Translations under genes and position numbers: made by a program
Assembly (NCBI RefSeq): GCF_020360975.1
Contig: NW_025408670.1
Span: 930,001-994,000, forward strand
DNA from: Hirsutella rhossiliensis
Taxonomy: Eukaryota > Ascomycota > Sordariomycetes > Hypocreales > Ophiocordycipitaceae
DNA length: 64,000 nucleotides
Reading direction: 5' to 3'
Notes under the pieces: generated by a model
The model's input: the letters and a program-made list of their open reading frames with translations, nothing else
The model's database searches: none
What the model was told of the DNA's origin: nothing
Shown here: positions 1 to 27,696 of the stretch, piece by piece
How positions within the stretch are numbered: position 1 is the stretch's first letter
How the letters are laid out: the number at the start of each line of letters is the position of its first letter

Positions 1-3000
1 GGTATAGTAGATAGAGAAGCACTAAGAGATAGAGCGCCTCTTTCCTTATATAAACGAACCCCTTTACCCCGACCCTACCTATATATAACTAAAAGTACTA
101 TACTAGAATATATAGAAGAGATATAAGCTAGCTTAGTTAGCGCTTTACTACTAGGCTAGCTTCGACCTAATAGTATTATAGGAAGTAGAAGCTACGCTAG
201 GAAGCGGGGCCCTACCCCTTAGAGCGGCGCCTTATAGCTTAGTTTATAAGGAGGGGAGGTACGCGCTATATATATATAAAAGGCTCGGGCTAGGGATATA
301 GTCGCCCCGGTTTAGACTAGACTAAAGCGAGGTAATTTTCGGGGATAGTACTAAACTAAGAGCGATTTACTTACTACTAGGAGCCGCGAGGGCTAGGGCG
401 TTACGGGACCTAAGCGTAATTAAACCGGAGCACCCTATAATAATAGTAAGGGACTTTAATATCTACTACCCGCTCTAAGATAGATATAATAGAACCTTAG
501 ACGGGGCGATATAACTTATATAGGAGGCGATAAGACTATAACTCGAACTCGCTACCTTAAGAGGGGAGTATATAAGATTTTTCTATAGCTAAAAAGATAG
601 CACTATCGACCTAGCTTAGGCAACGCTAGAGACTAAGATATAGTATACCGGGCCCAACCTAGACCTATCTAGGTTAGACTATATCCCTTAGACTATTATA
701 CTATAGGTTAATACCTAGGCCTAGGCGCCTAAACTAGCCCTAAGGTAGAAAGAAGTAGAAGTAAAGCTAGTTAAAGCTAAGACTATATCTTAGCTAAGGC
801 TATTTTAGCTAACGCTCTAAACGCCTAAGGATATCGACCGGGACCTAGACTATATCTTTACTACCTTTATATAGATCGCGAAAGCTATAGTTCTATACTA
901 AGGGCGAGCATTACCTAGGGGCAACGTATAGTTTACCCTAGAGGTAGGAAGGGTAATAAGGGAAGCTAAGAAGGCAAGGAGGAAGTATAGGCGAGAAAGG
1001 AGTAAGGCGAACTAAGAAGACCTATACGAGGCGACTATAGCTTAGAAGTAGACCGTCCGCGAGGCGAGGAGGGCCTACTAGCGCGAGTTCCTAGAGGAAT
1101 TTAGCGCGGATAATACTAAGCTCTAGAATATAGAGAGGTAGGCTAGACTCCGTAGTAGGCTACTATTAAAACTAACCTATATCCCGCCGCTAGTTAAGGA
1201 GGGCGAGGACCGACTAATAGAAACCTTCGAAGGGAAGGCCTAGATACTAGCCGCTAAGTTCTTCCTACTAAAGGCTAGCACGACTTAAGGGCTACCCCGG
1301 CCTATAGCTAAGGCGACCCTTATAGTTAACTAATAGATCTAACTAGCCGACGTTACGGCAGCGCTAAGTAAGATAGTAAGCTAGAAAGCGGTAGGACTAG
1401 ACGGCGTCCCCCTAAGGTTTATTAAGAAGTACGGACTAGCCCTAGTCTAGCGACTAGCTATAATCTTTAACGCTTATACCTAACTTTTATATTTCCTAGG
1501 CCGGTTCTATAGCGCGAACGTAGTAGTAATTTAAAAGCCTAGTAAGAGGCTAGAAGCCTACCGTATAGTAGGGGGATAGAGACCTATTTCCCTCCTACTT
1601 ATAGTAGGGAAAGTACTTAAGTAGATACTAGCCTAAAGGATCGCGGGGGTAGCGGAAGCGAACGATATCCTACTAGAAGGATAAATAAGGAATAGGAGGG
1701 AACGCTTTATAGAGGCGGCGATCCTACTAGTAACGGAACTAGTACGTACGACCTAGGCCTATAAGGGCATCGTATCGTTCCTATAGCTAGATATTAAGAG
1801 CGTATTTAATATAGTTAACTATAATAAGCTTATAAGGGAACTAAAGCTTAGGGGATACCCTAGATAGCTTATAAGCTTAATATAGAGCTTTATAAGTAAT
1901 AGAAGATCGACCTTTTACTTTAATAGGAGGACCTCGGAACTAACTTAGGTGCTATCGGGAGTCCCCTAAGGCTCCCCCTTATCCCCGATCCTATTCCTAT
2001 ACTATATAACCCCCTTATACGAAAGGCTTAGTATAATATATAGTATTTATACTATTAGCTTTACCGACGATATAAATATAGTTAGTATTAGACCTAATAA
2101 GGCTACTATAGTAGCGCGCTTAGAGGAGGCCTAGAAGGTATACGCGGAGTAAGCGACTAAGTTCGCGGTTACTTTTAAACTATTAAAAAGCGAGTTAATA
2201 TACTTTATATAGAGGAGATAAGCAATAACGATACCGGTTAGCCTTAAGGCTAATATAGTAATACCGGTCTAAGAGGCCCGCCTACTAAGGGTTTAGGTAT
2301 ATCGGAAATTATATTAAAAGGCGTACCTAAAATAGCTTTAAGTAAAGATAAAGCGCTAAACTATAGCCCTAATCGGGCTCGTAGCGTCTACGTAGGGCTA
2401 TACCCTACCGCGCGCTAGGGAAGTCTATAGTAAGGTAATCCGGTCCCTAATCTCTTATACTATAGTTATATTCTATAAGATAACGCCTATAGGGGGGAAA
2501 CTATATAGGATCGCGCGGGACCTAGTACGGGACTAGTTAGCTTACCTCCGAGTAATAATAGGTGCCTACCGCGCGACCCTAGTTTACTAAGTAAAAGCGG
2601 AAGCGTAGGTGCCCTTAATTAACCTCTACCTAAACTAAAGAATAACGGATACCCTCTAGAGGCTAAAAGACTTAGGGCTCCTAGGCTAAATTTAACGCGC
2701 GTTTAATACGGTCGCGGATATACTTAAGAGGAGGCAACGCTAGAGGGAGAGTAGGCCCCCGGCGGCGCTACTACCTAGTAGGCCCCCCCTCGCGGAGGAG
2801 ATAAGGGGGGTCTAGAGCTAGATAGGATCGGACGACCTCTTAGATAAAGCTAAGTTACTTAAAAGGCTAAATAAGGAATAGGCCGCTTAGTAGAACGCTA
2901 AGGAAGACGCGATCTAATAATACTAGACTACCCTCTACCCCGCTAACTTCCCGCTATAGTTTAATAAGGTAATAACGCTAGATCGCTATAAGGGCCTCCC

Positions 3001-3500
3001 TAAGTATATTAGCACGGTAATTACTTAGATATATATAGGAAAGATTAAGCTTAACGACTTCCTCTTTAACTAATAGGTCCCTAGCGTAGTCTTACTAATA
3101 TATACCTATAGATAAAAATAAGATACTATCTACTATATAATAATCGACTACCTATTAACGGAAGAGGCGAGGGAGTCCCTCTTAATACGGGCCTAGAACG
3201 TAGGCGACGTAAGAGTAGGCTTCTAAGGGAAAAAGATAGTAGCGCCGCTAGCGTAATAGCTCCTCTACTTAAGTAGGCTCCGCTAGTTTAACCTAGCTTA
3301 GAGGCTATACGTAGATAAGCCGGATAATAAGACCGAGGTCGCGCCGGAGATAGAGCGGCCCTAACTAAGACTACCCTAGCTAACTACTTCCCTTACTAAG
3401 GCGACCTAAGAAAGGGAGAGGACTTACGATAATAGGACTATAGTATTAGCCGAACTAAACCTAGACTAGGTATATACCTCGCTACTTAGACTACGGACTA
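1..3500 (+). mobile_element. RIP-mutated Tad-like LINE (non-LTR) retrotransposon, 5' cut by window edge
   Basis: Seen: no long ORF survives, but one strand reads as a LINE when TAA/TAG are read through. An endonuclease-type DFNI segment lies near 448-471. A reverse transcriptase follows with SGVP-stop-GSPLSP at about 1952-1987, where the usual Gln of SGVPQGSPLSP is now a stop, and FTDD at about 2058-2072 in place of the FADD/YADD active site. Near 3090-3150 a degenerate Cys/His segment matches the C-terminal CCHC-like region typical of these elements. Known: EEP endonuclease, RT and a C-terminal zinc knuckle is the order in fungal Tad/I-type LINEs. Inferred: an old element killed by C-to-T changes at CA on both strands. 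The 5' end lies outside the window and the 3' end is approximate. Confidence 0.8.
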
Positions 3501-3926
3501 AATAGAACTAACGAGACCTAACTATACTAGCCTTAATAGCTATAAAATAAGACCTACTACTAAAAGACTATAACTAAATAAGACCCGACCTAAAACTAAA
3601 CTAAGATAGAGCCGATAACTAGCCCTTAAACTACGACCTTAGCTTAACTTATTAGTAGCGATATCCGCCTCGCTATCGCGATAGGAATAATAGGACCCCC
3701 TTAAAGTAGTACGCGGAGTATAAGAGGGAGTAACCTAGGACTTACGAGGAGTATAGGGACTACTATTACTATAAGAAGCCTAATAACGGCTAGCCGGGCC
3801 CGACCCTAAACCTAAACCGGAGCTAGCCTAGACGGCTAGCTTATAAGATAAAGTAACGACCGGGGTCTATACTAAGGTAGGACTTACTCTAGCGGCGGCA
3901 TAGAGGCGTTCGCTATAGCCTATACT
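3501..3926. other. RIP-mutated DNA between LINE and Ty3 copy A, unassigned
   Basis: The same CA/TG-depleted composition continues. It may be the 3' tail of the LINE or another relic. I recognise no domain here. Confidence 0.4.
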
Positions 3927-4112
3927 TATAAGAGTCTTTAACTATTATAGGTTATAGGCTTAGGCTATAGCCTAAGCCGTATAGTTACGTACGGAGGGCC
4001 GGATCCTATACGTATATATACGGGCCAGCCGCGTATAGGAGAGCTCTATATAGCTTATTAATATTATCCTACGGACGGCACCTACGCGCACGCCTCTACC
4101 TACTCCGTAATA
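3927..4112 (+). repeat. 5' LTR of Ty3 copy A
   Basis: About 185 bp, shared with 10696-10884 and, reversed, with 13655-13840. It contains the shared blocks GGAGAGCTCTATATAGC and CGCACGCCTCTACCTACTC. The 3' boundary is accurate to about 10 bp because RIP has removed the terminal CA. Confidence 0.8.
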
Positions 4113-4199
4113 GTATAAGCTATTAATTAATAAATCTAATAGATATCTCTCCGGAGAGGGCGCCTCCCCCTTAAGGAAGCACTCCGCCCCTCCCTAGAC

Positions 4200-7100
4200 G
4201 GATAGGAAGTATCGTAGCTATCCTAGAAGCGATTAAAAGCACGACGGCTAGCGAGAAGGACGAGGTTCTCGCTATACTAAGGGAGCCGTCTACGAGACCG
4301 GCTTTAACCCCTACGACCTCCGTAACGCTAGTTACGGCGGCGATACTACTATCGAGGAAGCCGCTCCCTTAGCCGACTTAGGACGGTAAGCTAGAGTCCT
4401 TTTACTTCTTCCTTAGCTAGCTATAGACGAAGTTTATAACTAACGAGAAATAGGGCCTAAATAGCTATCGCGATATAGCGTAGTATTCGCTCCTCTATAC
4501 GCTACTAGAGCCCTAGATACGGCGGATCTCCGGATTCTAGGATAAGGGCGGCCCCGGGGGTAGACGCGACCTATAAGACTTCTTCTAATACCTTATATAT
4601 ACGTTCGGCAACGTATAGGAGTAGGAGAAGGCGTAAGATAGGCTATAGACCCTTAAGTAAAGAGACGGATAAACCTTTAGCGAATTCCTTCCCGATTTTA
4701 AAGAGACGCTCTTACGGGCAGCGGGGACTACGGTATAGGAAGATAGCGTAAAGCTTATATAGCTACGGAATTCGATTACGCCGGCCCTATAAGAGCTACT
4801 TATCCCCGTAATTATACTTACTAACTATAGTAAGTACGTAAGCCGGTTAATAAAGGTAGCTTAGGGCTATAAGTAGACGCCGCGTTTCTAGAAGCTCCGT
4901 AAGCGTACGCCGTATAGCGGCGATAGGATCACCGCCCCTCTATAAGATAAATAACCGGCTATCGATATAGATAGGGATACCTTAATATCGGCTACCCGTA
5001 TAGACCGGGCTAGACGCGGTAAGAAGACGCCGTCGACTACCCCCTATACCGCCCTATACTCTAAGCAGCGGGCGAAGTAGGTAACGAGCGAGGAAATCGG
5101 GAAGAGAAAGGCTAACGGCCGCTGCCTACGTTACGGAGTATCTATATACTTTATATTAAAATGCCCCTTCCTTTTAGCTAAGCGGCCTATAGCGGTTTAA
5201 GTAGCGAAGATAGAACCGCTCCTTACTTTAGACGATAAGGAGGACTCTACCCCCCTAGGCCTAGAGGAAAAAGAGTAGCTCCGGAGTAAAGATAGGCTTT
5301 AGAGCCTTAATTACTAGTACTAGTAAAGGAGAAGGAAGAATTATCCGCCCGTATAAAAGAGGAGCCTACTTTAATATAGGTTATAATTAATAACTCCTTG
5401 CCCGTTACTACCCTTATAGACAAGGGCTACTAGTACTACGCCGTAGTTAATAAGGCGCTTACGCGAGAGATATAAGTGCTAGTAGAAAAGATCGCCCTAA
5501 GGCGAGTAAAGGGCGCCTTAGGCGCGATAGAAGGTACGGTAATTAAGGGTATTACGTAGCTAGCTATAGAGGTCGACGGTTACTATAAGCTTATTATAGC
5601 TTATATAATCCCTTAACTAGAGTTTCCCTTAATCCTCGGGAAACCTTAGTTATTATATATAGAGTTATACTTAGTTCCGTACTAAAGGAAGCTATAGTTT
5701 AGGCCTACGTAACGGTAGGTCTGCTATAACGACGGTTCTATAAGCGTAGGACTAAGCGTACGAGCTTTATACTTAGTATAAGAAGTCCTTACCTCTATCT
5801 TTATAGGAACCGTGCGACGGGTAGAGCGGGGGTAAGGCCGGGCAGCGGCTAACGTAGCGGTCTACGTAGTTAGCCTAGCGGATATCGATAAGGCCCTCCG
5901 GATAAAGAAGCTAAAGTCGCCCTCTAAGCTATAGTAATAGATACCGGAGCGCTTTTACGACCTCCTACCGCTATTTAAGTCCTAGGAAGTAAATAAGCTT
6001 AACCTATATAAGCCGGGGGTAGACTATAGGATCGTACTCTATACTAATAAGAAGGGGTAGGAACTACTTATACTATTTAGACCGCTATATAGTATATTAT
6101 ACGTAGAGCTGCTAGTACTAAAGAAGACGCTAAGGGACCTCTTAGATAAGGGTTTTATTTAAGTAAGTAGCTCTAAAGTAAGAGCGCTAGTCTTATTCGT
6201 GCGTAAACTAAGGGGCGGGATACGGTTTTATTATAACTATAAGGCCTTAAACGCAATTATAAGGCCGGACCGCTACCCCTTACCCTTAATCTCGGATACG
6301 CTCTATAACCTTTTAAAGGCGAAGTAGTTTACGAAGCTAGATATAAAATAGGCGTTCTATAAGGTATAGATCTTAGAGGGTAACGAGTAAAAGATAGCGT
6401 TCTATATACGCTATAGCTTATTCGAGTAGCTTATAACGCCCTTTAGCCTCTTAAGAGCGCCCGCTACCTTCTAGCGTTATATTAATAACGTACTTTAGGA
6501 CTTCCTCGACGAGTTCGCCTCTATATATATAGATAATATCCTTATCTATACGAGCGGCTCCTATAAGGACTATATATAGAAAGTACGGAGGGTCCTAGAG
6601 CGCCTCTAACTTTATAGGCTCTACCTTAACCTAGATAAGTACGAATTCGGGGTTAAGAGGGTTAAGTACCTAGGCTTTATTATCTACGTAAGCGTAGGTA
6701 TATAAGCGGACCCCGTAAAGATCTAGGCGATTTAGGACTAAGCTGCCCTAACTATATAAATAGGCGTATAGAGCTTCCTTAGGTTCGCGAACTATTATAG
6801 GATATTTATTAAGGGCTTCTCTTATATTATAATACTATTAAACGAGATTACCGGAAAGTAAACCGCTTTTTACTAAGGGCCTATATAGGAAGGAGCGTTC
6901 CGTACGCTTAAGGACCTATTCTCTTAAGCCCTAGTACTACTCTAATAGGACTTCGACTAGTCTACGTTAGTTAAAGCGGACTATAGCGGCTAGGCACTTA
7001 AAGGAACGCTCTCCTAGGAGGTAAACGGGCGGAAGTAACTAGTAGCGTTCTACTCCTATAAGCTAACCTTAGCGGAGCGGAATTACGCTATTTACGATAA

Positions 7101-9135
7101 GGAGATACTAGCGATTATTAGCTACCTCGAGTAATAGTAAGCGGAGCTCCGGAGCTATAAGAGCTTCGAGGTTCTTATAGACTATAGGAACCTCGAGTAC
7201 TTTATAACTCGCTAGCACCTCTTAGAGCGGTAAGCCTACTAAGCGGAGTATCTCTTACGCTTTAACTTCTCGATTAAGTACCGCCTTAGGCGGGACTCCG
7301 CGGTCCTAGACGCGCTTTCCTAGAGGGATTAAGACCGGCTAACGGGAGTAGATATTAAGGCCTAGGATCTATAGCTTATCCTATAGGAAGTACTATAGAC
7401 TTATATAGGAGCTTCCCTAGTAGAGGAAGATATAGTATTAGCGAATAAGCTTCCCCCCGCGCCTTTACCTTAGTCTAGCGAGGAGGGATAGACCGGCCTA
7501 GGGGCGCGCGCGGCGAGAGTATTCTAAGATAAGGCCCTTTAACGCTTATAGGATAGGATAGCGGCTCTAGACCGTACCTACGAGGGCATACGCTACGCCG
7601 TTAAGTCCGGCGCTCGACGCTTAGATCTAAAGCTAAAGCTAAAGGTATAGGTAGCCGACTACTATATCGACCTACGGGGGCATCTACGCTAGCGGGGGAG
7701 ACTATAGGTACCGGGCGCACTATATACTATAGAAGCTAAGGAGAAAGAGGGACCGCTAAAGCTAGATAAATAGAACGAGCTCTAAGGGAGGCTAGTCTAA
7801 CTTATCTATAACTCTAGCGTCGTAGGTTACTTAGGTAGATAGGGCATAGTAGTAGGCCTTACGAGGGACTTTTACTAGCCCTTCTTATAGTACTACGTTT
7901 ATCGCTTCCTTTATAACTATAATATCTACGGCCGTATAAAGATCTAAAGGGCGTAGCTTAAGGGGCTACTTAAGTAGCTTCTAGTACCCGACTAGTTCTA
8001 TATATATATATAGATAGACTTTATAATAGACCTCCTACTTATAGAGGGCGGTAACTACTATATATAGGTAATTAAGGACCGACTTAATAAGTCTATAGTA
8101 TTAAAGCCGATACTATCTATAGATATAGAGTCCTACGTAGAGCGCTTCCTATAGTACTAGGCCCGCTTATATAGCTAGCTAGCCTCTATTATAAGCGATA
8201 GGGGATCGAATTAAACTAGCCGCTTTTAGTAGCACCTATACTAGCTACTTTAGATTATATAGCTACTTAGCACGGTATATTACTTATAGACTAACGGAGG
8301 GCCTAAGAGGGTTAACTAGGAGGCGTAGGCTTACCTATAGGCTATTATAGCCCGTAACTAAGTAGACTAAGACTAGTAGCTCCCCGCGGCCTAACTTACG
8401 TTAAATAGTAAACTATATACCTCTATTAAGATAGCCCTTTTCTTTATAACGTATAGCTTCGAACTACCCTTACTAGTTCCCTTTACCGTAGACGTAGTAG
8501 CGGAGTAGTATAGTAATTCGTTACTAGAGGGCCACGCCTCCGCGTTTATACGAAAGCTATAGGAGACTATAGATTATTGCTAATCCGCGATAGCCGCCGC
8601 GGCGTAAGATTAAGAGCGGCACGCTAATAAGACTAGGGCCCTAGTAGATAGGTTCGCGGTAAGAGATAAGGTATAGCTAGACCTCCGTAACTATAGGTCG
8701 GCACGACTAAAGAAGAAGCTTAACTAGCTATACGCGAAGTTTACGGTATAGAGGGTTATTAGCCCGTAGGTTATAGAGCTCGATAGTCTCCTAATAGGGG
8801 TCTATAATAAGATTAATATAGACCTCCTTCGTAGAGCCTCCTTTAACCCGCTGCCCGGATAAGAAGTAGCGGACGCCTAACTACCTATAATTAAGGTAAA
8901 GGGAGAGGATAAGTTTAAGGTTAAAGAGATATAGGCCGCGCGCTAGAAAAAGGTTAGTAGGGGGAAACGCCGGGAGGTCCTCGTTAAGTAGCGTAGGTAT
9001 CTTAACCCTATATAGGAACCCGTATATAAGTTTACGGGAACTATAGCCCTCGATAAGTTTAAAGCCTTATTCAGAATAGTAGACGAGAATAACGGACTAG
9101 CGGACTACCGATAGTAGCCTAAGCTAGGACTATAA
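4200..9135 (+). pseudogene. gag-pol of Ty3 copy A, destroyed by RIP
   Basis: Read through stops, the + strand gives in order: a retrotransposon gag domain (about 4380-4850); a zinc knuckle at about 5122-5163, with two of the CCHC ligands now Tyr; an aspartic protease region near 5400-5690; RT (about 5990-6800) whose YxDD box reads YIDN at about 6520-6545; RNase H (about 6960-7330); integrase (about 7640-8560) with the DRGSN segment near 8200; and a chromodomain-like tail near 8930-9060. CAA/CAG to TAA/TAG and TGG to TAG account for the stops I checked. The catalytic D-to-N change is also the TG-to-TA outcome. No function remains. Confidence 0.85.
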
Positions 9136-9189
9136 AGTAGGTAAAGTAGAGTAGGTAGTTACGATAACGCGAGCGTAATTATATAAGCG

Positions 9190-10680
9190 GAGATAAAAAT
9201 AGCGTTTATTTTAGGGCAGAGCCCCTAGACTACCTAGACCTACTCCTCGTCCTTATCGTCGTTCTTATCCTTATCCTCGTCGTCCTCCTCTACCTTATTA
9301 ATAGCGGCGGCGCTCTCTAAGGCGCTTAGGCGGCCCTCTAGGCCCGCGAGCTAGTTAGCGGTAGCGGCGGCTCCGGGGGCTCCGGGGGCGGGGGGGGCCC
9401 GGCTAGCAGTAGCAGCGGGGGCGGCGGCGGGAATAGCTAAGGGGACCGCCGATAGGGCGACGGAGGCAGTATCCCTAGTGCCGGGAGAGTTAGTAGCGGA
9501 AGTAAAAGAGCTAGATAAGAGGAACTTACTTAGGGACGAGGCCCTAGCGCTCGAGGGCGCGGAGATTGCGGTAGGCGGCGGCGGCGGCGGTAAGGCGCTT
9601 CTTAGTAGCCCCCCGTGCCTACCCGTGCGCGCCGGCCTTCTAAGCCGACGCCGTAGCGAGCAAGATAGGAGGCGCCGCCTTATAGGCGCGGCCGGCACGC
9701 GCGTACTAATAATAACTACCGCTACGGCGGCGCCCGACTTAGTCGGCGTAGGGGAGCTCCTACGACGCGCACCGTATATAGGGGGCTACGCGGGCGGCTC
9801 CGGCCTATACTTAGCGTTTATACTTTAAGAAGTTAGCGGAAAATAGCTACTACGCTTACTAAGTAGCGGACTTACGGGGGTAGTAATAGCGGAGGCGGGG
9901 GCAAAGGGGCCGGGCGTTACGGCCGGCGGCGGGGACGGCGTCGTTACCCGGAAGGGCGACGTAAGGGCGGCTAGCGTAGTAGAGGTAGAGGCGGCGGCGG
10001 TAGGCGCGGTCGCGGGGGCGCGGGCAGGAGCAGCGGTAGCGGCGGAGCCGTCGTCGGCCGTACCTAGCACGGCGTCGACGAACGACTCCGCACGCTCCGA
10101 GAAGGAGGAAGCGGGGGAGGGGGAGGTAGATATATCTATCGCGGAAGTTAGTATTACGGATTACGGCCTCCCGCTCTATAAGGCGGAGAACTTACTAGTT
10201 AAAATTATTATTATTAGGGCTATTATTACTACTATAGCTATTACTACGAGTATACGTTAATAAAGCGGCCTATATAGCTAGGAACGAACTAACGCCTTAG
10301 GTAGAGCGGAACTTACCTATTACTACTACTACTATAGTTAAAAAAGGAGGAGAAAGAAAGGAAGGAAGAAGGGGGGGATACCGCCTTATATACCCCTAGG
10401 TAGAGGAGGCTGCCTAAGGCCGAGGGGACGGGTAACCTAAGGCTTACGTAGGTCTAGGCCGGCCGCCGGCTACCTAAGGGCGTATATAATAGGTTGCGCC
10501 CCTATTTAAACGGCTAGCCGGCCGATAAGTATAGAGCCCGGTTCTAGCTGCCCGGGCTAATAGGCGCGGGGATAATAGGGCTAGTAGGGCTAGCACGATT
10601 AACGGAAAAGGGTAGGGTAGAGCTAGCGGTATAGGCCCTATAGTACGGAAGCCGTTAATAGGGCAACGCCGCGCCGCGCT
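9190..10680. other. 3' accessory region of Ty3 copy A between pol and 3' LTR
   Basis: About 1.5 kb, GC-rich, conserved in inverted copy B (13856-15340). Both strands contain open stretches, for example 9478-9828 on + and 9825-10070 on -. The minus strand reads a long Ala/Ser/Thr/Pro-rich sequence with an Asp/Glu/Lys-rich end near 9190-9310, in a position equivalent to the antisense ORF of element C (26978-27477). RIP and composition bias prevent deciding which strand was coding. I favour an antisense accessory ORF by analogy. Confidence 0.4.
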
Positions 10681-10681
10681 T

Positions 10682-10692
10682 AAGGGAGGGCA
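10682..10692 (+). other. Polypurine tract of Ty3 copy A
   Basis: AAGGGAGGGCA lies just before the 3' LTR start at 10696, where the plus-strand primer site of an LTR retrotransposon is expected. The complement of the same tract adjoins the copy B LTR at about 13844-13855. Confidence 0.6.
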
Positions 10693-10695
10693 TTA

Positions 10696-10884
10696 TATAA
10701 GAGTCTTTAACTATTATAGGTTATAGGCTTAGGCTACGGCCTAAGCTATATAGTTACGTGCGGAGGGCCGGATCCTATATATATATATACGGGCTAGCCG
10801 TATATAGGAGAGCTCTATATAGCTTATTAATATTATCCTATAGACCATACCTACGCGCACGCCTCTACCTACTCTATAATAATA
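10696..10884 (+). repeat. 3' LTR of Ty3 copy A
   Basis: Direct repeat of 3927-4112, starting TATAAGAGTC. The two LTRs differ at scattered sites, many of them C/T or G/A as RIP would leave. The 3' end is approximate. Confidence 0.8.
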
Positions 10885-10939
10885 CTATAACTATAGATTT
10901 AATCGATATTAAGACTAGCGACGATCTTAGCCGGGACTA

Positions 10940-11730
10940 AACCGCGACGACTATAAATACGCTACTAAATAAAGTTAGGAGCGCTAATAAGGTCGCTAGG
11001 CGATATAAAACGGGGACGCTTTAGGGCGGGTTTAGCGATAAGAGAACTACCGAGCTATAGCTCGGTATCGGAACCGATAGCGGGCGATAAGGCGGGCTCC
11101 TATACTAGCTTTAGGACGACTACGGGTATAGGGACGGCGACGGTCTCCCTAGCCTTAGCCTTAGATAGAGCTATAGACGAGGTAGCTACCTTACCCTTAC
11201 CCTTACCCTTCCTTTTATTAAAAGGGGCTAGGGCCGGACTAGGGCTAAGAAGATTAAAACTACCGTTATCCCTACTATTAAGACTATCGCTAGCAATAAG
11301 ATAGAAATAGTTAGCGAGATCGTTAACCGCTATAAGAGTCTTTTAAGTAACTAAGAGCGACTTAGGCCTAACCTAGGCTAAGGTCTTAATAGTATCGCTA
11401 AACTTACTTAGGTGCTTCTCTAAGGACTTATATATATAGTAGGTATTATCTATAAAACGGGTAAAAGCTAAGGCGAGCGTCTCGATATTCTTAGCGACTA
11501 TAGCCGGACTAAGGGTAGACTCGTTTAACGCGCCCTTACCCTTAGCGGCGGGGGCCTTCCGACTAGCGCGGATATAGGTTTCTAGAGCAGCGCGGTAAAG
11601 GCGCTCCTATACCGAGCCCTTAATAAGAGAGAGGCGGTCGACCTTAGACTAAGCCTAGTATAGAGTATAGGCGGCCTCCTCGCCCTTAAAGGTAATCTAA
11701 GATATAGATTAGTACTAAACTTAGACCGTA
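10940..11730 (-). pseudogene. Unidentified RIP-mutated ORF
   Basis: One minus-strand frame stays coherent for about 790 bp apart from TAA/TAG codons. It encodes a segment rich in helix-forming residues (stretches such as KNIETLALAFTRFID and KSLEKHLSKFSDTIKTLA near 11380-11520), followed by a Ser/Pro/Lys/Ala-rich tail near 11150-11250. I do not recognise a family. It could be a gag-like or accessory ORF of another retroelement lodged between the two chromovirus copies, or a captured host gene. Confidence 0.4.
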
Positions 11731-12699
11731 CTATAGTAGGAAGGGGTTACTTACCCGGTAATAGGACTAGTTAGAGTTAGCGTAAGCGATATATACTTTA
11801 GCCTTTACGGCTAGTAAAGTTAGTAAAAAGTACTAGAAGTAAGACCGGCCTAGGAAAGGAGTAGGACTAATACTTATAGGACTAGTTTTAATAGCCTACG
11901 AAGGACTTATAGGTAAGCTCGCTAGTAAGGCGCCCGATATACGTAAAATATAAGATAGAGCGCTCCGATCCTACTATAGTAGCGACTTTCTTATAAGGAG
12001 GGGGTTTTATAGGAGGTAAACCGCTACTACCTAAGTTAGCTTCTTAGTTAGATATTGCGAAACGATAGCGAACGAACTTAATATAGTGCTAGTAAGACCT
12101 AGGATATAGAGATAAGGCGGGTAAGAAACCGGGGCTTCTAAAGGAGAGGGTAGATAGAGAGGTAGGGGGAGGTAGGTATAAAACTAAGGGGAGAGGGCAG
12201 GTATATATATACGCGAGCCGGGCGCGCGAAATTAGTAACCACGCGCTAGATAGTAAATATAAGCCGCCGCGCCCCTAATTAGGAAGCTGCGTAGCTAGAT
12301 AGAAACCGATTTTCGATTAGCGGAGCCGGCCGACTAAATTTCGATTAGCCGGCCCTACCTAGGAGCGACCTATACTAGCGCCCGGCCCGGCAACCGGATA
12401 GTACCTGCCCTACTAACTAATAGACTAATAGGCTAACGCGTACGCGGCTACGCGGTAGCGACGCGGGAGCTAAGGAGAATAAAGGTGCCCGCGAGCCGGG
12501 CCCCTAGAGAAAGACTACTGCCTATAACCCTAGGCCTAGGCTAGTAAGCCCGGGCCGCGGCCGCTTAGGATAGTAGCGGCTACGGCCTAAGAGGGCCTAC
12601 GCCGAAGAGTAAATACGCGGGAGGAGCCTATAGTAGCTAGCGTAAATTTTATATATACTACTACTATAACCTCGTTTAAGGCGGACCCATACTAAAAGA
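11731..12699. other. RIP-mutated repeat DNA, no gene recognised
   Basis: CA/TG-depleted, moderately GC-rich, with no domain that I can read on either strand. It may belong with the unidentified ORF at 10940-11730. Confidence 0.4.
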
Positions 12700-13654
12700 G
12701 GGGAGGGTTTTCCCCTAGGCACTTTAGTTTTTCCCTCCTATTTAATACCGAAGTTTTAGATACCTTTAGCTAGGTCCCTAGTATAATCTTAATAATAATA
12801 ATATATATTTTATATATATTTTATTTTACTAGGATAGGCTTATCTTAACCCTCTTCTCTTAAAGGAAGGTATAGATATTTAGTAAAGGTCTTTATCTTTA
12901 AGGGTTATTCCCTTAAACTATATTATAAAGCCTCTTTTTACTAGCTTATTTTATAGAGCCTCCTTATACCTATTATTTCTTTATAATAGTAAAATAGGAA
13001 TATAAGGGTATATTCTTATAGCCTCCCTTAAAGAGTACTAAGTAAATAGTGCTCTTTACTAGTTATTCCTTTTATAGTAGAATTATCTATATTAAGAATA
13101 AGGTATATAATAGGAATATAAAGGAAAATTTTAAAACCCTTTCTAGGAAAAACCTTAGTAGGAAAAATCCTAGTTATAATTATAATTTTTTTTCCTTTTT
13201 TTAGGCAAACCTTTATAAGGAAAAAGCCTTATAAAGTTATTATAGGAAACCTTTAATAAGGAAAAACCCTATTTTTATAAGTTGTTTTTTATTAATAGGA
13301 AACCTTTTTAAAGGAAAAAGCCTATTAGTTATATATAGAAGAAAAGCTAAGAAAGCGAAAGATAAATAAAAAACCTTTATTAAAGGGATATAAGCTTTTT
13401 TTTTAAGGCTCTTTTAATTCCCTAAGGGAAAGAAGCTCTTAGAACTTTAAGAATTTTTCTCTTCTTAGTTCCTTAGTAAATATATCGGTAATATTATCTT
13501 CGGATTTAATATAGAAAATCCGAATCTTCTTTTCCCTAATATTTTCTTAGGTATAAAAGTAAGCAATATCTATATACTTTGTCTTTTTATAAAATTCCGG
13601 ATTTTTAGCTAATTTAATAGCTACCTTATTATCTATTAAGATAGGAGGTATAGT
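12700..13654 (-). mobile_element. 3' end of a RIP-mutated Ty1/copia retrotransposon
   Basis: Seen: the minus strand at about 13430-13654 encodes the end of a copia RNase H: IDNKVAIKLAKNPEF, then a KTKYIDIAYFYT-like box and a D.FTKEL-like end, all hallmark copia motifs with RIP changes. Downstream on the minus strand (13430 to about 12700) is an AT-rich tail that probably includes the 3' LTR; its ends are not resolvable. The LTR of Ty3 copy B begins at 13655, cutting the element. Inferred: copy B inserted into an older copia element. Confidence 0.75.
13120..13335. repeat. Imperfect short repeats in the copia tail
   Basis: About four degenerate units of roughly 33-38 bp, each with an AAACCTTTATAAGGAAAAAG-like core that is itself partly self-complementary (AACCTT..AAGG). 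It lies in the AT-rich tail of the copia relic, probably LTR or 3' UTR. Confidence 0.6.
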
Positions 13655-13840
13655 TATTATAAAGTAGGTAGAGGCGTATATATAGGTGCTATCTATAAGA
13701 TAATATTAATAAGCTATATAGAGCTCTTTTATACGCGGCTAGCCTATATATATACGTATAGGATCTAGCCCTTTATATATAATTATACGGCTTAGGCTAT
13801 AGCCTAAGCCTATAACCTATAATAGTTAAAGACTCTTATA
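13655..13840 (-). repeat. 3' LTR of Ty3 copy B
   Basis: Reverse complement of the LTR at 3927 and 10696, with its LTR start at 13840 (GACTCTTATA on +) next to the purine tract complement TAATGCCCTCCCTTA. It interrupts the copia RNase H relic. Confidence 0.8.
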
Positions 13841-13855
13841 TAATGCCCTCCCTTA

Positions 13856-15340
13856 AGCGCGGCGTAGCGCTGCCCTATTAATAGCTTCTATACTATTAGG
13901 CCTATACTACTAGCTCTACCCTACCCTTTCCTATTAATTATACTAGCCCTACTAGCCTTATTATCCCTATACTTATTAGCTTAGGTAGCCGGAACCTAGC
14001 TCTATACTTATTAGCCGGCTAGCCGTTTAAATAAGGGCGCAACCTATTATATACGCCCTTAAGTAGCCAGCGGCCGGCCTAGACCTACGTAAGCCTTAGG
14101 TTACCCGTCTCCTTAGCCTTAAGTAGCTTCCTCTATTAAAGGGTATATAAGGCGGTATCCCCCCCTTCCTCCTTCCCTTCCTTCTTTTCCTTCTTTAACT
14201 ATAGTAATAGTAGTAATAAATAAGTTCCGCTTTACTTAAGGTATTAGTTCGTTCCTAGCTATATAAGCCGCTCTATTAACGTATACTTATAGTAATAGCT
14301 ATAGTAGTAATAATAGCCTTAATAATAGCAATAATATTAATAACTTTAACTAGTAAGTTCCCCGCCCTATAGAGCGGGAGGCCGTAATCCGTAATATTAA
14401 CTTCCGCGATAAATATATCTACCTCCCCCTCCCTTGCCTCCTTTTTCTTAGAGCGTATAGAGTCGTTCGTCGACGCCGTACTAAGCACGGCCGACGATAA
14501 CTCCGCCGCTACCGCTACTCCTACCCGCGCCCCTACTACTACGCCTACCGCCGCCGCTACTACCTCCGCTACGCTAGCTACCCTTACGTCGCCCTTTAAT
14601 ATAACGACGCCGTCCCCGCCGCTACCTATAACGCCCGGCCCCTCGGCCCCCGCCTCTATCTCCGCTACCCCTATAAGTCCGTAGTTAAGCGAGCGTAATA
14701 GACGTCTTCCGCTAACTCCTTAAAGTATAAGCGCTAGGTCTAGGCCGGAGCCGCTCGCGCGGCCCCCTATATATAGTATACGTCGTAGGAGCTCCCTTAC
14801 GCCGACTAGGTCGGGCGCCGCCGCAGCGGTAGTTATTACTAATATACGCGTGCCGGCCGCGCTTATAAGGCGGCGCCTCCTATCCTACTCGCTACGGCGT
14901 TAGCTTAAAAGGCCGGCGCGTATAGGTAGGCCTAGGGGGCTACTAAGAAGCGCCTTACCGCCGCCGTAGCCGCCTACCGTAACCTCTACGCCTTAGAGCG
15001 CTAGGGGCTTATCCCTAAGTAGGTTCTTCCCCCTCCGCTCTCCTACCTCCGCTACTAACTCTCCCGGTACTAGGGATACCGCCTCCGTCGCCTTATCGGC
15101 GATCCCTATAGCCGTGCCCGCCGCCGCCGCTACTACTACCCCTACCGCCGCCGCTAAAGCTAGCCGCCGCCCCTCCGCCCCTAGAGCCGCCGCCGCCGCC
15201 GACTAGCTTATAGGCCTAGAGGGCTAACTTAGCGCGCTAGAGAGCGCCGCCGCCGCTACTAAGAAGGAGGAGGGGGCCGATAAGGATAATAATAATAATA
15301 ATAGTAAGGGCAAGGGTAATAATAAGGAATAAGCTTAGGA
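13856..15340. other. 3' accessory region of Ty3 copy B
   Basis: Reverse-complement counterpart of 9190-10680 in copy A. It includes an open minus-strand stretch at 14276-14488 whose reading matches the + strand of copy A near 10080-10260 residue for residue over much of its length. That open frame may be chance in GC-rich DNA. Confidence 0.4.
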
Positions 15341-15374
15341 AGTTTAAGGGCTCTACCTTAAAATAAACGCTATT

Positions 15375-18300
15375 TTTATCTCTACTTATACTATTACGCT
15401 TATATCGCTATAATTACTTACTTTACTTTACTTATTTTATAGTCTTAGTCTAAGCTACTACTAGTAGTTTATTAGTTTATTATTTTTATCTACCGGTCTA
15501 TATAAGGTCTCGAACTTATTAAGGGCTATAGCTCCTATAAACTTATATATAGGTTCCTATATAAGGTCGAGGTACCCGCGCTACTTAACGAGAACCTCTT
15601 AGTATATCCCCCGGCCTACCTTCCTTTAACGTATAGCCTCCTCGACCTTAAATTTATCGTCCCCCTCTACCTTAATTATAGGCGGTTAAGCGTCCGCTAT
15701 TTCTTATCTAGGTAGTAAGTTAAAGGAGGCTTAGTAAAAGAGGTTAATATTAATCTTATTATAGACCCCTATTAAGAGACTATTAAGCTTAACTACCTAT
15801 AAGCTAATAACCCTTTATATCGTAAACTTTATATATAGCTAGTTTAGTTTCTTTTTTAGTTATATTAACCTATAGTTATAGAGGTCGAGCTATACCTTAT
15901 CTCCTACTATAAACCTATCCGCTAGTACCCTAGTTTTATTAGCGTGCCGCTCTTAATCCTACGCCGCCGCGGCTATCGCGGATTAATAGTATTCTATAGT
16001 TTCTTATAGCTTCTATATAAACGCGGAAGTATAGCTCTCTAGTAACGTACTACTATACTACTTTACTACTACGTTAGCGGTAAATAAGATTAAGGAGGGT
16101 AGCTTAAAGCCATGCGTTATAAAGAAAAGGGCTATTTAAATAGAGGATTATAGTTTACTATTTAGTATAAGCTAGGTAGCGGGGAGCTAGCGGTCTTAGT
16201 CTACTTAGTTATAGGCTATAACTACCTATAGGTATACCTATACTTCTTAGTTAACCCTCTTAGGTCCCCCGTCGGTCTATAGGTAATAAGCTATACTAAG
16301 TAGCTATATAATCTAAAGTAGCTAATATAGGTACTACTAAAAGCGGCTAGTTTAGTTCGACCCTCTATCGCTTATAATAAAAGCCGGCTAGCTATATAAG
16401 CGGGCTTAGTACTAAAGGAAGCGCTCCGCGTAAGCTTCTATATCTATAAACGGTATTAGCTCTAGTACTACTAATTTACTAAGTTAGTCCTTAATTACCT
16501 ATATATAGCGGTTACCGCCCTTTATAAGCGGGAGGTCTATTATAAAGTCTATCTATATATACGTATAGAACTAGTCTAGTACTAAAAGCTACTTAAGTAG
16601 CCCCTTAAGCTACGCCTTTTAGATTTTTATATAGCTATAGATATTATAGTTATAAAGGAAGTAATAAATATAGTACTATAAGAGGGGCTAGTAAAAGTCC
16701 CTTACGAGGCCTACTACTATACCCTACCTACCTAGGTAACTTATAACGCTAAAGTCGTAGATAAGCTAAACTAGCCTCCCTTAGAGCTTATTTTATTTAT
16801 CTAGCTCCGGTAGTCTATCCTTCTCCTTAGCTTCTATAGTATATAGTGCGCCTAGTACCTATAGTCTCCCCCGCTAGTATAGATACCCTTATAGGTCGAT
16901 ATAGTAGTCGGCTACCTATACCTTTAGCTTTAGCTTTAGATCTAAGCGTCGAGCGCTAAACTCTATAGCGCGGCGTACGCTCTCGTAGGTATAGTCTAGA
17001 GCCGCTATCCTATCCTATAAGCGTTAAAGGGCTATATCTTAGAATACTCTCGCCGCGCGTGCCCTTAGGCCGGTCTATCCCTCCTTACTAGACTAAGGTA
17101 AATGCGCTAAGGGAAGCTCGTTTAATAGTAAAGGTATAAAGGGAAGCTCGTCCGCTAGCACCGCGCCTTCCTCTACTAGGGAAGCTCCTATATAAGTCCG
17201 TAGCGCTTCTTATAAGATAAGCTATAGATCCTAGGCCTCGATATCCGCTCCTATCGGCCGGTCTTAATCCCTTTAAGAAAGCGCGTTTAGGACTATAGAG
17301 TCTTACCTAAGGCGGTACTTAATCGAGAAGTTAAAGCGTAAGAGATACTCCGCTTAGCGGGCTTACTACTCTAAGAGGTACTAGTAGGTTATAAAGTACT
17401 TAAGGTTCCTATAGTCTATAAGAACCTTAAAGCTCTTATAGCTCCGGAGCTCCGCCTACTATTGCTTAAGGTAGCTAATAATTACTAGTATCTCCTTATT
17501 ATAAATAGCGTAATTCCGCTCTACTAAGGTTAGCTTATAGGAGTAGAACGCTATTAGTTACTTCCGCTTATCTACCTCCTAAGAAAGTATTCCTTTAAAT
17601 ACCTAGCTATTATAGTCTACTTTAACTAACGTAGACTGGTTAAAGTCCTATTAGAGTAGTACTAGGGCTTATAAGAAAAGGTCCTTAAGCGTATAGAACG
17701 CTCCTTCCTATATAGGCCCTTAATAAAAGGCGGTCTACTTCTTAGTAATCTTATTTAAGGGTATTATAATATAAGAGAAGCCCTTAATAAATATCCTATA
17801 ATAGTTCGCGAACCTAAAGAAGCTCTATATACCTATTTACGTAGTTAGGGCCGCTTAGTCCTAGATCGCTTAGATCTTTATAGGATCCGCTTATATACCT
17901 ATGCCTATATAGATAATAAAGCCTAGGTACTTAACCCTCTTAACCCTAAATTCGTACTTATCTAAGTTAAGGTAGAGCCTATAAAGTTAAAGGCGCTTTA
18001 AGACCCTCTATACTTTCTATATATAGTCCTCGTAAGAGCTACTTATATAAATAAGGATATTATTTATATATATAGAAGCGAACTTATCGAGGAAGTCGCA
18101 AAGTACGTTATTAATATAATACTAAAAGGTAGCGGGCGCTCTTAATAGGCCGAAGGGCGTTATAAGCTACTTAAATAAGCTATAGCGTATATAGAACGCT
18201 ATCTTTTACTCGTTACCCTCTAAGATCTATACCTTATAGAACGCTTATTTTATATCTAGCTTTATAAACTACTTTACCTTTAAGAGGTTATAAAGTATAT

Positions 18301-20339
18301 CTAAGATTAAGGGTAAGGGGTAGCGGTCTAGCCTTATAATTATATTTAGAGCCCTATAGTTATAATAGAACTATATCCCGCCCCTTAGTTTACGTATAAA
18401 TAAGACCGGCGCTCTTACTTTAAAGCTACTTACTTAAATAAAACCCTTATCTAAGAGGTCCCTTAGCGTCTTCTTTAATACTAGTAGCTCTATATATAAT
18501 ATACTATATAGCGGTCTAAACGGTATAGGTAGTTCCTACCCCTTCTTATCGGTATAGAGTATAATCCTATAATCTACCCCTAGCTTATATAGGTTAAGCT
18601 TATCTACTTCTTAGGACTTAAATAGTAGTAGGAGGTTATAAAAGCGCTTTAGTATCTATTACTATAGCTTAGCGGGCGACTTTAGCTTCTTTATCTAAAG
18701 GGCCTTATCGATATTTACTAGGCTAACTATATAGACCGCTACGTTAGCCGCTGCCTAGCCTTCCTCCCGCTCTACCTATTATATAGTTCTTATAAAGATA
18801 GAGGTAAGGACTTCTTTAGCTAAGTATAAAGCTCGCACGCTTAGTCCTATACTTATAGAACTATCGTTATAGCGGACTTACTATTATATAGGCCTAAACT
18901 ATAGCTTCTTTTAGTATAAAACTAAGTATAGCTCTATATATAATAACTAGGGTTTCCTAAGGATTAAGGGAAACTTTAATTAGGGGATTATATAGGCTAC
19001 GATAAGCTTATAGTAGCCGTCGACCTCTATAACTAGCTATATAATACCCTTAATTACTATACCCTCTATCGCGCTTAAAGCGCCCTTTACTCGCCTTAGG
19101 GCGATCTTTTTTCCTAGTACTTATATCTCTCGCATAAGCGCCTTATTAACTACGGTATAGTATTAGTAGCCCTTATTTATAAGGGCAGCGATAGGTAAGG
19201 AGTTATTAATTATAACCTATATTAAAGTAGGCTCCTCTTCTATATAGGCGGATAATTCCTCCTTCTCCTTTACTAATACTAGCAATTAAGGCTCCGGAGC
19301 CCGTCTTCGCTCTAGAGCTACTCTTTTTCCTTTAGGCCTAAGGGCATAGAGTCCTCTTCGTCGTTTAAGGCAAGGAGTAGTTCTATCTTCGCTACTCGAA
19401 CTATTATAGGCCGCTTAGCTAAAAGGAAGGGGCATTTTAATATAAAGTATATAAACGCGCTATAACGTAAGTAGCGGCCGTTAGCCTTCCTTTTCTTAAT
19501 TTCCTTACTCGTTACCTACTTCGCCCGCTACTTAGAGGGCGGGATAGTATAGGGAATATTCGATAACGACTTCCTACTATATTTAGCTTAGTCTATATAA
19601 GTAGCTAATATTAAGGTATCCCTATCTATATTAATAGTTAGCTATTCCTCTTATAAAGGGGCGGTAATCCTATTACCGCTATATAGCGTACGCTTATAAA
19701 GCTTTTAAAAATATAGCGTCTACTTATAGCCCTATACTACTTTTATTAACCGGCTTATATACTCGCTATAGTTAGTAGGTATAATTATAGGGATAAGTAG
19801 CTCCTATAAGCTAGCGTAATTAAGTTCTATAACTATATAAGCTTCGCGCTATCTTCTTATACTATAGTTCCCGCCGCCTATAAGAGCGTCTCTTTAAAGT
19901 TAAAGAGGAATTCGCTAAAGGACTACCTATCCCTTTACCTAAGGGTCTATAGCTTATCCTACGCTTTCTCCCGCTCTTATATATTACCGAACGTATATAT
20001 AAGGTATTAAAAGAAGTCCTATAGGTTACGTTTGCCCCTAGGGCTACCCTTATCCTAGAATCTAGAGATCCTTTATATCTAAGGCTTTAGTAGCGTATAA
20101 AAGAGCGAATACTACGCTATATTACGATAGCCGTTTAAGCCCTATTTCCCGTCTATTATAAACTTCGTCTATAGCCGGCTAAGGAAGAAGTAAAAGGACT
20201 TAGGCTTACCGTCCTAAGTTAGCTATAAAAGCGGCTTCCGTATTAATAGTGCTACTACCGTAACCGGTATTACGGAGGTTATAGGGGTTAACGCTAGTCT
20301 CGTAGACAGCTCCCTTAGTATAGCGAGAACCTTATTCTT
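15375..20339 (-). pseudogene. gag-pol of Ty3 copy B, RIP-mutated and 5'-truncated
   Basis: Minus-strand remnants in order from 20339: gag, zinc knuckle near 19480, protease near 19000-19230, RT near 17900-18640, RNase H near 17340-17700, integrase near 16100-17000, chromodomain near 15560-15700. Stops lie at former CA/TG sites as in copy A. The first part of gag is lost at the junction with element C. Confidence 0.8.
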
Positions 20340-20805
20340 TGTTACGACCCGACCAACGGATGTTACGACCCGACCAACGGATGGCCATGACACGGGCCAG
20401 GGATGACTAACCGCTGAAGGATCACGTGACCATGCGAAAGGTGATCGGTGGATCGCCTTACGATCAAGCGAGCGGTGCTCGACGGATCGTTCATCGATCA
20501 AGGTGATCACCTCTGTGATCACCTCCAGCACCTCGCGATCAGAGACGGGCAGTTGGGTATATATAGCTGCCCCATTTCACTCTTTAGATAGATAGCTCTT
20601 TAGCTTTCAACACAATCATTACGATCCCTATCACGATCTCATCTCTGATTCCGATCACTTGATTACCTGGTTACAGTCTACGGTCTACGACCTCCGACTC
20701 ATCACCAACGTGACATACTTATCATTGCTCAGACCACGCCCTGTTGTATCTGCCAACATAAACCCCACGACAGGTTTATCCCTGGGAATATCACCGGTCG
20801 TCACA
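20340..20805 (+). repeat. 5' LTR of element C
   Basis: It begins TGTTACGACC and ends GGTCGTCACA, near-perfect inverted ends of the TG..CA type. The first 21 bp are duplicated in tandem (20340-20360 and 20361-20381), so the true LTR start could be either copy. The same doubled start is present at 27697, beginning the 3' LTR. Confidence 0.8.
20557..20566 (+). promoter_or_regulatory. TATA box in LTR of element C
   Basis: GTATATATAG lies about 40 bp upstream of 20602, the base where the transcript should begin if the self-priming model holds. It is probably the retrotransposon core promoter. Confidence 0.55.
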
Positions 20806-20806
20806 C

Positions 20807-20816
20807 GTTGAAAGCT
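20807..20816 (+). other. Self-priming primer-binding site of element C
   Basis: GTTGAAAGCT sits one base after the LTR and is the exact reverse complement of AGCTTTCAAC at 20602-20611 inside the LTR, near the expected RNA 5' end. This is the arrangement of Tf1-type self-priming retrotransposons, in which the 5' end of the RNA folds back as primer. I see no tRNA 3'-end complement (TGG..) at this place. Confidence 0.65.
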
Positions 20817-20868
20817 CTTGTTCAGAACGATACCGCGTCTCTCTGAGCAATATCGCATAACTGTCAAC

Positions 20869-22280
20869 ATGCCTGCACAGCAAACTGGATCAACCAACTC
20901 GGGACACACCGTGTCGCCGCAGGACATGATGCGCGAAATCATCAGCCTTCGACAGGAGGTCCAAGTACTCAGGAACGGAGGAGGCAACGGACAAGTTAGG
21001 GACCTCGGAGAAGCAGTCAAACCAAAACAGCCAGGACCATTCGACGGTACTCATGGCACGCTTCGAGACTTTCTCACCCAACTCAAAGCCTACCACCGAT
21101 TCTATCCGACCAAGCTCTCGGACCCAGTCGAAAAGGTACTCCACGCAGGAAATTGTTTATCTGGAACGGCACTCGCCTGGTTTGGACCCATCATGAGGAC
21201 TTTCTCGACAACCAACCAGCGCGACGAGACAACGAGACAGACGAAGTCTTTGCCAGTTTCCAAGGATTCGAAGAAGCCATTACGAAGGTATTCGGAACAA
21301 CCGACGAGGAACGAGAGGCCGAACAGAAACTTCGAGAACTCCGACAAAGGATCTCAGCATCGGATTATGCTGCGAAGTTCCGTCAAGTCACCTCAAAGCT
21401 TGATTGGGACGACGAACCTCTTATGTCACGATTCTACGACGGGCTTAAAGAAGAAGTCAAGGACGAGCTCTACAAGGAAAATCGACCTGACAACCTCTCG
21501 GACTACATTGCTATGGCAGTACGAATCGACGACAGACAGTATGCGCGACGCCAAGAAAAGAAACAAGGAAGAGGAAACTGGAACCCTTCCTATGGGAACA
21601 ACTTTAACCGACGCGCCAACTACAAGAAGAAGCGCGAAACTCCCATTGCTTACGCCCACACAACTAACCCAGGCAAAATGGACCTGGATGCAACAAAGAA
21701 GGGCGAAGGAAAATGCTTCAACTGCGGGAAAGTTGGACATTTCTCACGAAATTGCAAGCAACCTCGCAAGGAGAAGAAAGTTCACTGGGCCCCAGCCCCA
21801 GAAGGTAAGAGACACCTGAACGCTACTAACAAGCAGGAACCAAAGCATGAACTCCTTAGTTGGACTGCATGCTACGACGACAAATGCACGGTACACCTAA
21901 GCGACAAAAACGGTACCGGATGGTTCCAAAGCCACCAAAGAAAACCCTGCAATGGTGCAACGAAGAGATCCACAACACAGAAACAAGTCAAATTCGCAGA
22001 ACCAGAATACCCCTATCCTGAAGGAGTCTCACAAGACTGGATCAGGAAGAACGGCAAACGATTCCAGGAAGACATGCGAAATAAGGATCGACAACAACGA
22101 CGGGCAGTCTATAAACAACATAACAAAGAAGATACGGACGCAGCCCTTATGCTCACGAAACTCGGACAACAACCCGAAGAGGAACAACGAAGTTTCGACG
22201 ACACAAGCTCTGAAGAACAAGACACGCTACAAGAAACAGAAGACGAGGATGAACTCGCACCACCACCCTCACTACTAAGG
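20869..22280 (+). pseudogene. gag: Gag of element C (one frameshift)
   Basis: Capsid precursor of the retrotransposon. The start ATG at 20869 (MPAQQTGSTNSG) is the first in frame after the PBS. A capsid-type domain follows (GPFDGTHGTLRDFLTQLKAY and later FRQVTSKLDWDD), then an Arg/Lys-rich stretch and a CCHC zinc knuckle CFNCGKVGHFSRNC at 21714-21755. The frame changes at GG 21197-21198, where one missing G would explain the shift. It changes again at A4 22281-22284, where gag runs into the protease region. The part after the knuckle carries the first of five C-x4-C-x2-H motifs (21870-21896). Confidence 0.82.
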
Positions 22281-25476: not shown

Positions 25477-25478
25477 CC

Positions 25479-27477: not shown

Positions 27478-27676
27478 AAGAATGTCGGGATTCGAAAGGA
27501 TCGTGGAAAGCAGGACACCACAACGGATGGACGACGAGGCCTTGGCCTTTCTTGGAAACACGGTCAGACGGCATGACGGACCATGATGAAGGAAGAAGAA
27601 AGGAACGGCACACACTCACGCAGGAAATGACCAGGATATGCGACACGGCGGCTAAAGCAGGTCTTGAGGGCAAGAC

Positions 27677-27690: not shown

Positions 27691-27696
27691 ACCTGA

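Follow-up and report, generated by a model that had tools for sequence, protein, structure and literature searches.

Why should the few CpA dinucleotides left in a heavily mutated repeat stand almost exclusively behind a G? The question is raised by the first 20,339 bases of the window (the whole stretch analysed here, 64,000 nucleotides of Hirsutella rhossiliensis, positions 930,001 to 994,000 of contig NW_025408670.1), a block saturated by repeat-induced point mutation (RIP) that stops sharply at 20339, where an un-RIPed Ty3/Gypsy-type element starts. The answer that we consider very probable is that the block is old repetitive DNA in which RIP has turned CpA into TpA on either strand, at a rate that depends on the neighbouring bases; the mutator would be one or both of the fungus's own RID and DIM-2 cytosine-5 methyltransferases, and the 5' effect might reflect how costly it is to unstack that C from its neighbour.

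What survives in the saturated block

On both strands of the block, 131 CA dinucleotides remain (observed/expected ratio, o/e, 0.05), compared with 6836 TA (o/e 2.07). Sorted by their 5' base, the survivors are 116 GCA, nine CCA, four ACA and two TCA; the 15 HCA (H being A, C or T) comprise 12 on the plus strand and three on the minus strand. In the gene region at 31001-62000, our control, the two strands together hold 4140 CA (ACA 783, CCA 1244, GCA 1295, TCA 818), with o/e values of 1.11 for CA and 0.55 for TA. GCA thus makes up 89% of the remaining CA in the block, whereas its share in the control is 31%, a difference with a binomial p of 2e-42 when sites are taken as independent. In the second RIPed block, which begins at 63531 and runs to the end of the window, 6 of 7 CA are GCA. 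The restriction to repeats that is expected of RIP is also seen: a family within the block occurs in at least 39 other places of the genome, and CA content is normal in the gene region.

The GCA dominance had been proposed by a first-pass annotation from the letters alone, and it holds in these counts. The four exceptions named there (two CCA, one TCA and one ACA) are real, each lying within about 11 bases of where it had been placed. Its description of the first 1.2 kb was right about the absence of TG and wrong in giving seven CA, all after G, since the plus strand has eight, one of them the CCA at 655. The statement that CG, CC and CT are not depleted is correct for composition (o/e 1.27, 1.31 and 1.51) but fails for CpG, whose loss is visible between repeat copies (22% CG to TA, see below).

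GCA is a slow target in a Ty3/Gypsy family

The un-RIPed element next to the block provides a reference against which mutation can be counted directly (20340-27753, taken to 27761 for this purpose). Its 40 scored genome matches comprise 26 full-length copies at 98-100% identity (the window copy included), 12 copies at 82-85% and two pieces at 99%. All 12 diverged copies (L011-L022; L022 is covered in part only, 3190 positions) were compared pairwise with the window copy. Their loci, which include some flank, have 183-308 TA per kb versus 71 in the window copy. With gaps and cells showing A or G in the copy excluded (183 of 9925 CpA cells), C had become T at 2114 of 3053 ACA (69%), 1990 of 2460 CCA (81%) and 1686 of 2129 TCA (79%), and at only 820 of 2100 GCA (39%). 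The 12 remaining contexts gave 3-17%, and the T-to-C background is 3-4%. C-to-T change is therefore concentrated at CpA, on both strands, and pooled by 3' base the order of loss is CpA, CpG, CpT, CpC. The TpCpG target of Pucciniomycotina-type hypermutation is not the one used here, TCG having been mutated at 490 of 3555 cells, far below CCA.

The effect of the 5' G persists when sites with changed neighbours are set aside. Among the 6450 of 9217 observations in which the neighbours at -2, -1, +1 and +2 are unchanged in the copy, 348 of 1197 GCA were mutated, versus 4212 of 5253 HCA; for GGCA the count is 21 of 197. At the level of sites, GCA and HCA differ with p 7e-44. GCA is slower on either strand, at 35% versus 76% for HCA on the plus strand and 50% versus 93% on the minus strand.

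These counts bear on two other explanations. A GCA-rich ancestor, or base composition, could leave GCA in excess, and GpC is indeed over-represented in the block (o/e 1.42). In the un-RIPed relative, however, GCA accounts for only 185 of 838 CpA sites and in the control region for no more than the 31% given above, and the fractions mutated, which are counted per context, are unequal; we find this explanation scarcely credible. According to the other, RIP acts on HCA only and something else mutates GCA. The rarity of change at GGCA might be read in its favour, but GCA with unchanged neighbours is mutated far above the T-to-C background, and its mutation grows with the RIP load of the copy, from 50 of 176 in L011 to 107 of 176 in the more heavily RIPed L021, so that such a strict rule appears very improbable. 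Because GCA was mutated at 820 of 2100 cells, it is a slow RIP target, about threefold slower overall, and neither immune nor protected. The first-pass annotation, which saw RIP as complete on HCA and poor on GCA, was thus right about CpA-directed RIP and the 5' G effect, which persists when 5' neighbours are tabulated against an unmutated relative that is not GCA-rich. Its confinement of the rule to a trinucleotide does not stand, for the rule is wider and CpG is a second target, and neither does the notion that RIP refuses GCA.

All 12 diverged copies are mutated more on the minus than on the plus strand, most extremely in L015 (0.91 and 0.48). The HCA/GCA hazard ratio is at its lowest, 1.7, in L015 as well.

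Shape of the neighbour rule

We described the rule by complementary log-log (proportional hazard) regression on the 9217 observations, each of one site in one copy, with 60 bootstrap rounds in which blocks of 150 bases were resampled. Relative to A at -1, the hazard is 0.32 (0.28-0.38) for G, 1.48 for C and 1.63 for T, meaning that a 5' G cuts the CpA hazard about threefold compared with A and about fivefold compared with C or T. The regression extends the rule on both sides, with hazards of 1.98 (C), 2.05 (T) and 1.10 (G) at -2, of 0.52 (C), 1.43 (G) and 1.06 (T) at +2, and of 0.60 (C), 0.88 (G) and 0.69 (T) at +3. A pyrimidine at -2 therefore about doubles the CpA hazard, and C at +2 about halves it. 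GGCA is about 14-fold slower than HCA in the observations with unchanged neighbours. The survivors of the block are enriched in two of the poor neighbours predicted from the Gypsy copies: C stands at +2 of 47 of the 116 GCA survivors, compared with 128 of 1023 GTA, and G at -2 of 57 of 116, compared with 274 of 1023.

TGCA palindromes, considered as a cause of slow GCA mutation, were ruled out, as GCA outside TGCA is still mutated at only 300 of 950. TGCA is informative in another way: the target on each strand has a 5' G, and mutating one turns the 5' G of the other into A. Across 30 TGCA sites in the 12 copies, with 55 of 360 cells excluded for gaps or other letters, 112 had no hit, 59 a single hit and 134 a hit on both targets; if hits were independent, 152 single and 88 double hits would be expected. 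The control pair TGNNCA gave 122 single and 186 double hits, versus 120 and 187 expected. Given this excess of double hits, loss of the 5' G in TGCA seems to unlock the second target, although there are only 30 sites and heterogeneity among them could contribute.

Why the survivors look almost exclusively GCA

A threefold difference in rate may seem too small for a survivor population that is nearly all GCA, and we modelled its consequences near saturation. HCA and GCA were made to decay exponentially with a threefold rate ratio from the mix of the Gypsy element (22% GCA, 133.7 CA per kb). At the survival found in the block (0.048), the predicted GCA share is 0.88 and the share seen 0.89; for ten other copies of the repeat family at 4788-7468, pooled (survival 0.080), they are 0.78 and 0.82. 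The near-exclusive survival of GCA can therefore be attributed to the rate difference acting until about 95% of CpA is gone, which the model shows to be sufficient.

A second repeat family and other target dinucleotides

The stretch at 4788-7468, its inverted copy at 17128-19808 and ten copies from elsewhere in the genome (L034-L043) were aligned as a 12-copy family, in which the 5' rule recurs. Among sites known to be CA from another copy, those mutated in the focal copy number 407 of 633 for GCA, 118 of 136 for ACA, 73 of 77 for CCA and 30 of 36 for TCA. A context score trained on the Gypsy copies predicts which sites survive in this family (area under the curve, AUC, 0.70; within GCA 0.62, p 6e-7).

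The alignment also tells where the survivors come from. If CpA had been exhausted and CpG were then hit on the opposite strand, turning GCG into GCA, the GCA survivors would be late intermediates rather than spared CpA. CpG loss is under way in this family, and the other copies have mostly CG or TG at 28 of the 262 GCA survivors and at 10 of the 54 HCA survivors. They have mostly CA or TA, however, at 225 of the 262 (mixed at 9) and at 34 of the 54 (mixed at 10), and the un-RIPed Gypsy reference shows the 5' G effect directly at its CpA sites. As the main source of GCA such intermediates are refuted, accounting for about a tenth in the 12-copy family, and we hold it improbable that they explain the pattern.

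CpG is shown by this family to be a slower second RIP target, and a 5' G delays its loss whichever strand carries that G. Opposite a CG in one copy, a second copy shows TA in 21.9% of pairwise comparisons and CA or TG in only 2.2%; as the product is nearly always TpA, it is as if the first hit creates a CpA target that is soon finished. Sites no longer CG amount to 48%, 19% and 10% with a 5' G on none, one and two strands (n=1671, 1192 and 128). CpT loss follows a further 5' rule, being 18% after C, 14% after T and 3% each after A or G.

Candidate methyltransferases and a possible mechanism

A genome search found two PF00145 genes, predicted from their sequences to encode a RID-type (L032) and a DIM-2-type (L031) methyltransferase. 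L032 has an open frame of 649 amino acids with PPCQ and EQTFG motifs, which aligns with Drechmeria rid1 and six others and shares 97% identity, across 86% of the query, with a Hirsutella rhossiliensis protein. L031 matches the N. crassa DIM2 structures 9baq/9bap (E ~1e-243), and its 441-residue catalytic part is 100% identical to a Hirsutella rhossiliensis protein. Its homology to DIM2 thus extends to the methylase and BAH domains: the Pfam DNA_methylase match is above cut-off, a single BAH match of 28.2 bits falls under the Pfam cut-off of 30.8, and the precomputed domains of its homologue P0121 include BAH. Both loci have normal CA content and un-RIPed frames.

It is plausible that one or both of these enzymes act as the mutator. 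In N. crassa, RIP of native duplicates ceased to be detectable only when rid and dim-2 were both mutant (PMC11969663), and the sequence therefore cannot name the enzyme behind the 5' rule here. The methyltransferase would flip the target C out of the helix, and the 5' effect could, more tentatively, reflect the cost of unstacking that C from its 5' neighbour during base flipping. In the N. crassa DIM2 structure, R1175 inserts itself between the orphan G and the base next to it at -1 on the non-target strand; the flanking preference of the enzyme is called open in that paper (PMC11315935). Measured single stacks with C are -2.1 (G), -1.9 (A), -0.6 (C) and -0.5 (T) kcal/mol (PMC9902561, Table 1). 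The unstacking idea is suggested because the rate order T > C > A > G reverses this order of stacking strength (G on C, A on C, C on C, C with T). The idea that DIM-2 of H. rhossiliensis has a residue of its own at the -1 step was considered and rejected, the position of R1175 being K here and in 120 of 120 listed homologues.

The deaminating activity could also belong to a separate deaminase with a 5'-neighbour preference rather than to a methyltransferase. Deaminases of the AID/APOBEC type typically discriminate strongly among 5' bases, and the mechanism of RIP deamination is unsettled. The specificity found here, however, is strongest at +1, for A, and reaches +2 and +3, and the N. crassa double mutant likewise speaks for the methyltransferases. 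We regard a separate deaminase as a long shot; deaminase genes were not searched for here.

Several results count against neighbour-dependent RIP by these enzymes as the full account. The HCA/GCA hazard ratio differs between Gypsy copies, reaching 5.1 in L022 from the low value in L015, and among the GCA survivors of the block A at -2 is not enriched (37 of 116, versus 487 of 1023 at GTA). The Gypsy-trained score predicts only weakly per GCA column of the second family (rho -0.27, p 0.053, 52 columns). At CpC, which is hardly lost, 5' G is not the slowest context (2.7%; A 0.7%). CpG loss in the Gypsy copies lacks the 5' G order, at 15% (n=3169), 18% (n=1084) and 9% (n=140). The CA density and GCA share from which the decay model starts belong to a different repeat family, and single copies depart from it in both directions (L042, 0.79 seen and 0.65 predicted; L039, 0.78 and 0.88). 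In 78 saturated random subtiles, GCA is 84 of 123 survivors (68%), less than the model expects, a lower share that may stem from later mutations filling in. As to mechanism, no result here separates RID from DIM-2, A and G differ by only 0.2 kcal/mol in stacking on C yet by threefold in rate, and a rank match of four bases arises by chance once in 24.

RIP since the latest Gypsy burst

RIP of the CpA type in Pezizomycotina is a process of the sexual cycle that follows mating and precedes meiosis. At least 26 full-length Gypsy copies at 98-100% identity are without RIP, alongside open RID and DIM-2 genes. Differences between 17 near-intact copies and the window copy have no clear CpA excess; CpA accounts for 11 of 38 C-to-T changes in L029 and 2 of 20 in L005, but for 3 of 4 in L010. 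The latest burst seems to have escaped RIP, as if no effective cross had occurred since, with RIP idle or the fungus not crossing. The terminal repeats of the window element (20340-20396 and 27697-27753) are identical and only 57 bases long, including two 21-base units. The match to L029 and L030 extends beyond the Gypsy end and continues with the bases that come next in the element, as though tandem copies shared a terminal repeat.

Layout of the window and genome context

The features of the window are collected in Table 1. The RIPed block has no blastn match in the remainder of the window and contains eight stop-to-stop frames of at least 100 amino acids; the window has no tRNA and no Rfam match at gathering score. 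Immediately right of the Gypsy element, a MULE transposase domain with normal CA content lies at 28641-29468, and at 34108-34971 open frames on both strands contain 9-base units in tandem (CCTGGCCAC and relatives). The genome measures 81.8 Mb in 40 contigs, and 10 of 20 sampled 2-kb tiles, placed at round coordinates, are RIP-saturated. Two random tiles (L054 and L057), with 22-24% GC and 3-4 CA per kb, are far AT-richer than the window block (43% GC); in them RIP was perhaps carried further via CpG and CpT.

Table 1. Features of the window, with coordinates counted from its first base
Feature	Position	Strand	Remarks
RIP-saturated repeat block	1..20339		CA o/e 0.05, TA o/e 2.07; 116/131 surviving CA are GCA
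HCA survivors (position of C)	655, 4026, 4930, 5421, 8533, 9072, 10846, 12240, 12688, 14068, 16111, 20307	+	
HCA survivors (position of TG)	13283, 13580, 17637	-	
Large inverted repeat, left arm	4263..10882	+	aligned pieces 4263-7429 and 7448-10882 (second gapped); arms 81-86% alike
Large inverted repeat, right arm	13654..20332	-	pieces 13654-17118 and 17167-20332
Repeat-family stretch	4788..7468	+	at least 39 other genome places at 91-93% identity (40 of 1073 candidates scored)
Second family copy, inverted	17128..19808	-	86% identical to 4788-7468
Un-RIPed Ty3/Gypsy-type element	20340..27753	+	identical 57-base terminal repeats
Gypsy gag	21153-22394	+	
Gypsy aspartyl protease domain	in 22331-24247	+	
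Gypsy RT and RNase H	24114-25520	+	
Gypsy integrase	25555-26904	+	
Second RIPed block, start	63531..64000		6/7 surviving CA are GCA; right end of window

Meaning and comparison with known systems

Descriptions of RIP usually refer to the base on the 3' side of the target. Here a quantitative 5' rule has been measured with un-RIPed DNA as the reference; it is found again in a second repeat family, and with simple kinetics it explains a GCA pattern that seems absolute. RIP indices (TpA/ApT and its partner) treat all CpA alike (PMC2621366), and a general 5' rule would matter for them. The rule also offers a specificity fingerprint for comparison with purified RID and DIM-2. More speculatively, RIP might read at least six bases (-2 to +3), the -1 rule being physical (the cost of unstacking C) and hence general, and saturated blocks might keep a fossil GCA ratio. 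We rate this extension as rather unlikely; if true, that ratio would reveal enzyme specificity and the amount of RIP in any genome.

Among the matches listed in literature searches for a neighbour or trinucleotide rule, in a library with few subscription papers, we found no 5' rule of this form for CpA RIP, although one may exist in the N. crassa papers PMC10234303 and PMC13207899 or in PMC6180176. RIP in N. crassa is likewise a saturating change of C to T at CpA in repeats, on both strands, in a fungus with RID and DIM-2. Its 3' order is given as CpA>CpT>CpG>CpC (PMC5496416), in contrast to CpA, CpG, CpT, CpC here. The quantitative neighbour rule from -2 to +3 measured here may or may not be shared by N. 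crassa. For the element MAGGY in Magnaporthe grisea, RIP reportedly prefers (A/T)pCp(A/T), whereas in H. rhossiliensis a 5' C serves as well as a 5' T, and G alone is unfavourable. For a congener, Hirsutella minnesotensis, a RID homologue has been reported together with RIP indices, which are of the dinucleotide kind (PMC4255773). Trichoderma reesei, also of the Hypocreales, shares CpA and CpG as RIP targets, but there the two are described as about equal (PMC5496416), and here CpG is clearly slower. In the RIP-like TpCpG hypermutation of Microbotryum the 5' neighbour matters as well (PMC5381629, PMC4352252), with CpG as target and T as the preferred 5' base, unlike the CpA target and disfavoured 5' G of H. 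rhossiliensis. CpA-directed RIP, RIP in Hirsutella and a trinucleotide rule for TpCpG are thus known, and what appears to be new is a measurable effect of the 5' neighbour on RIP at CpA.

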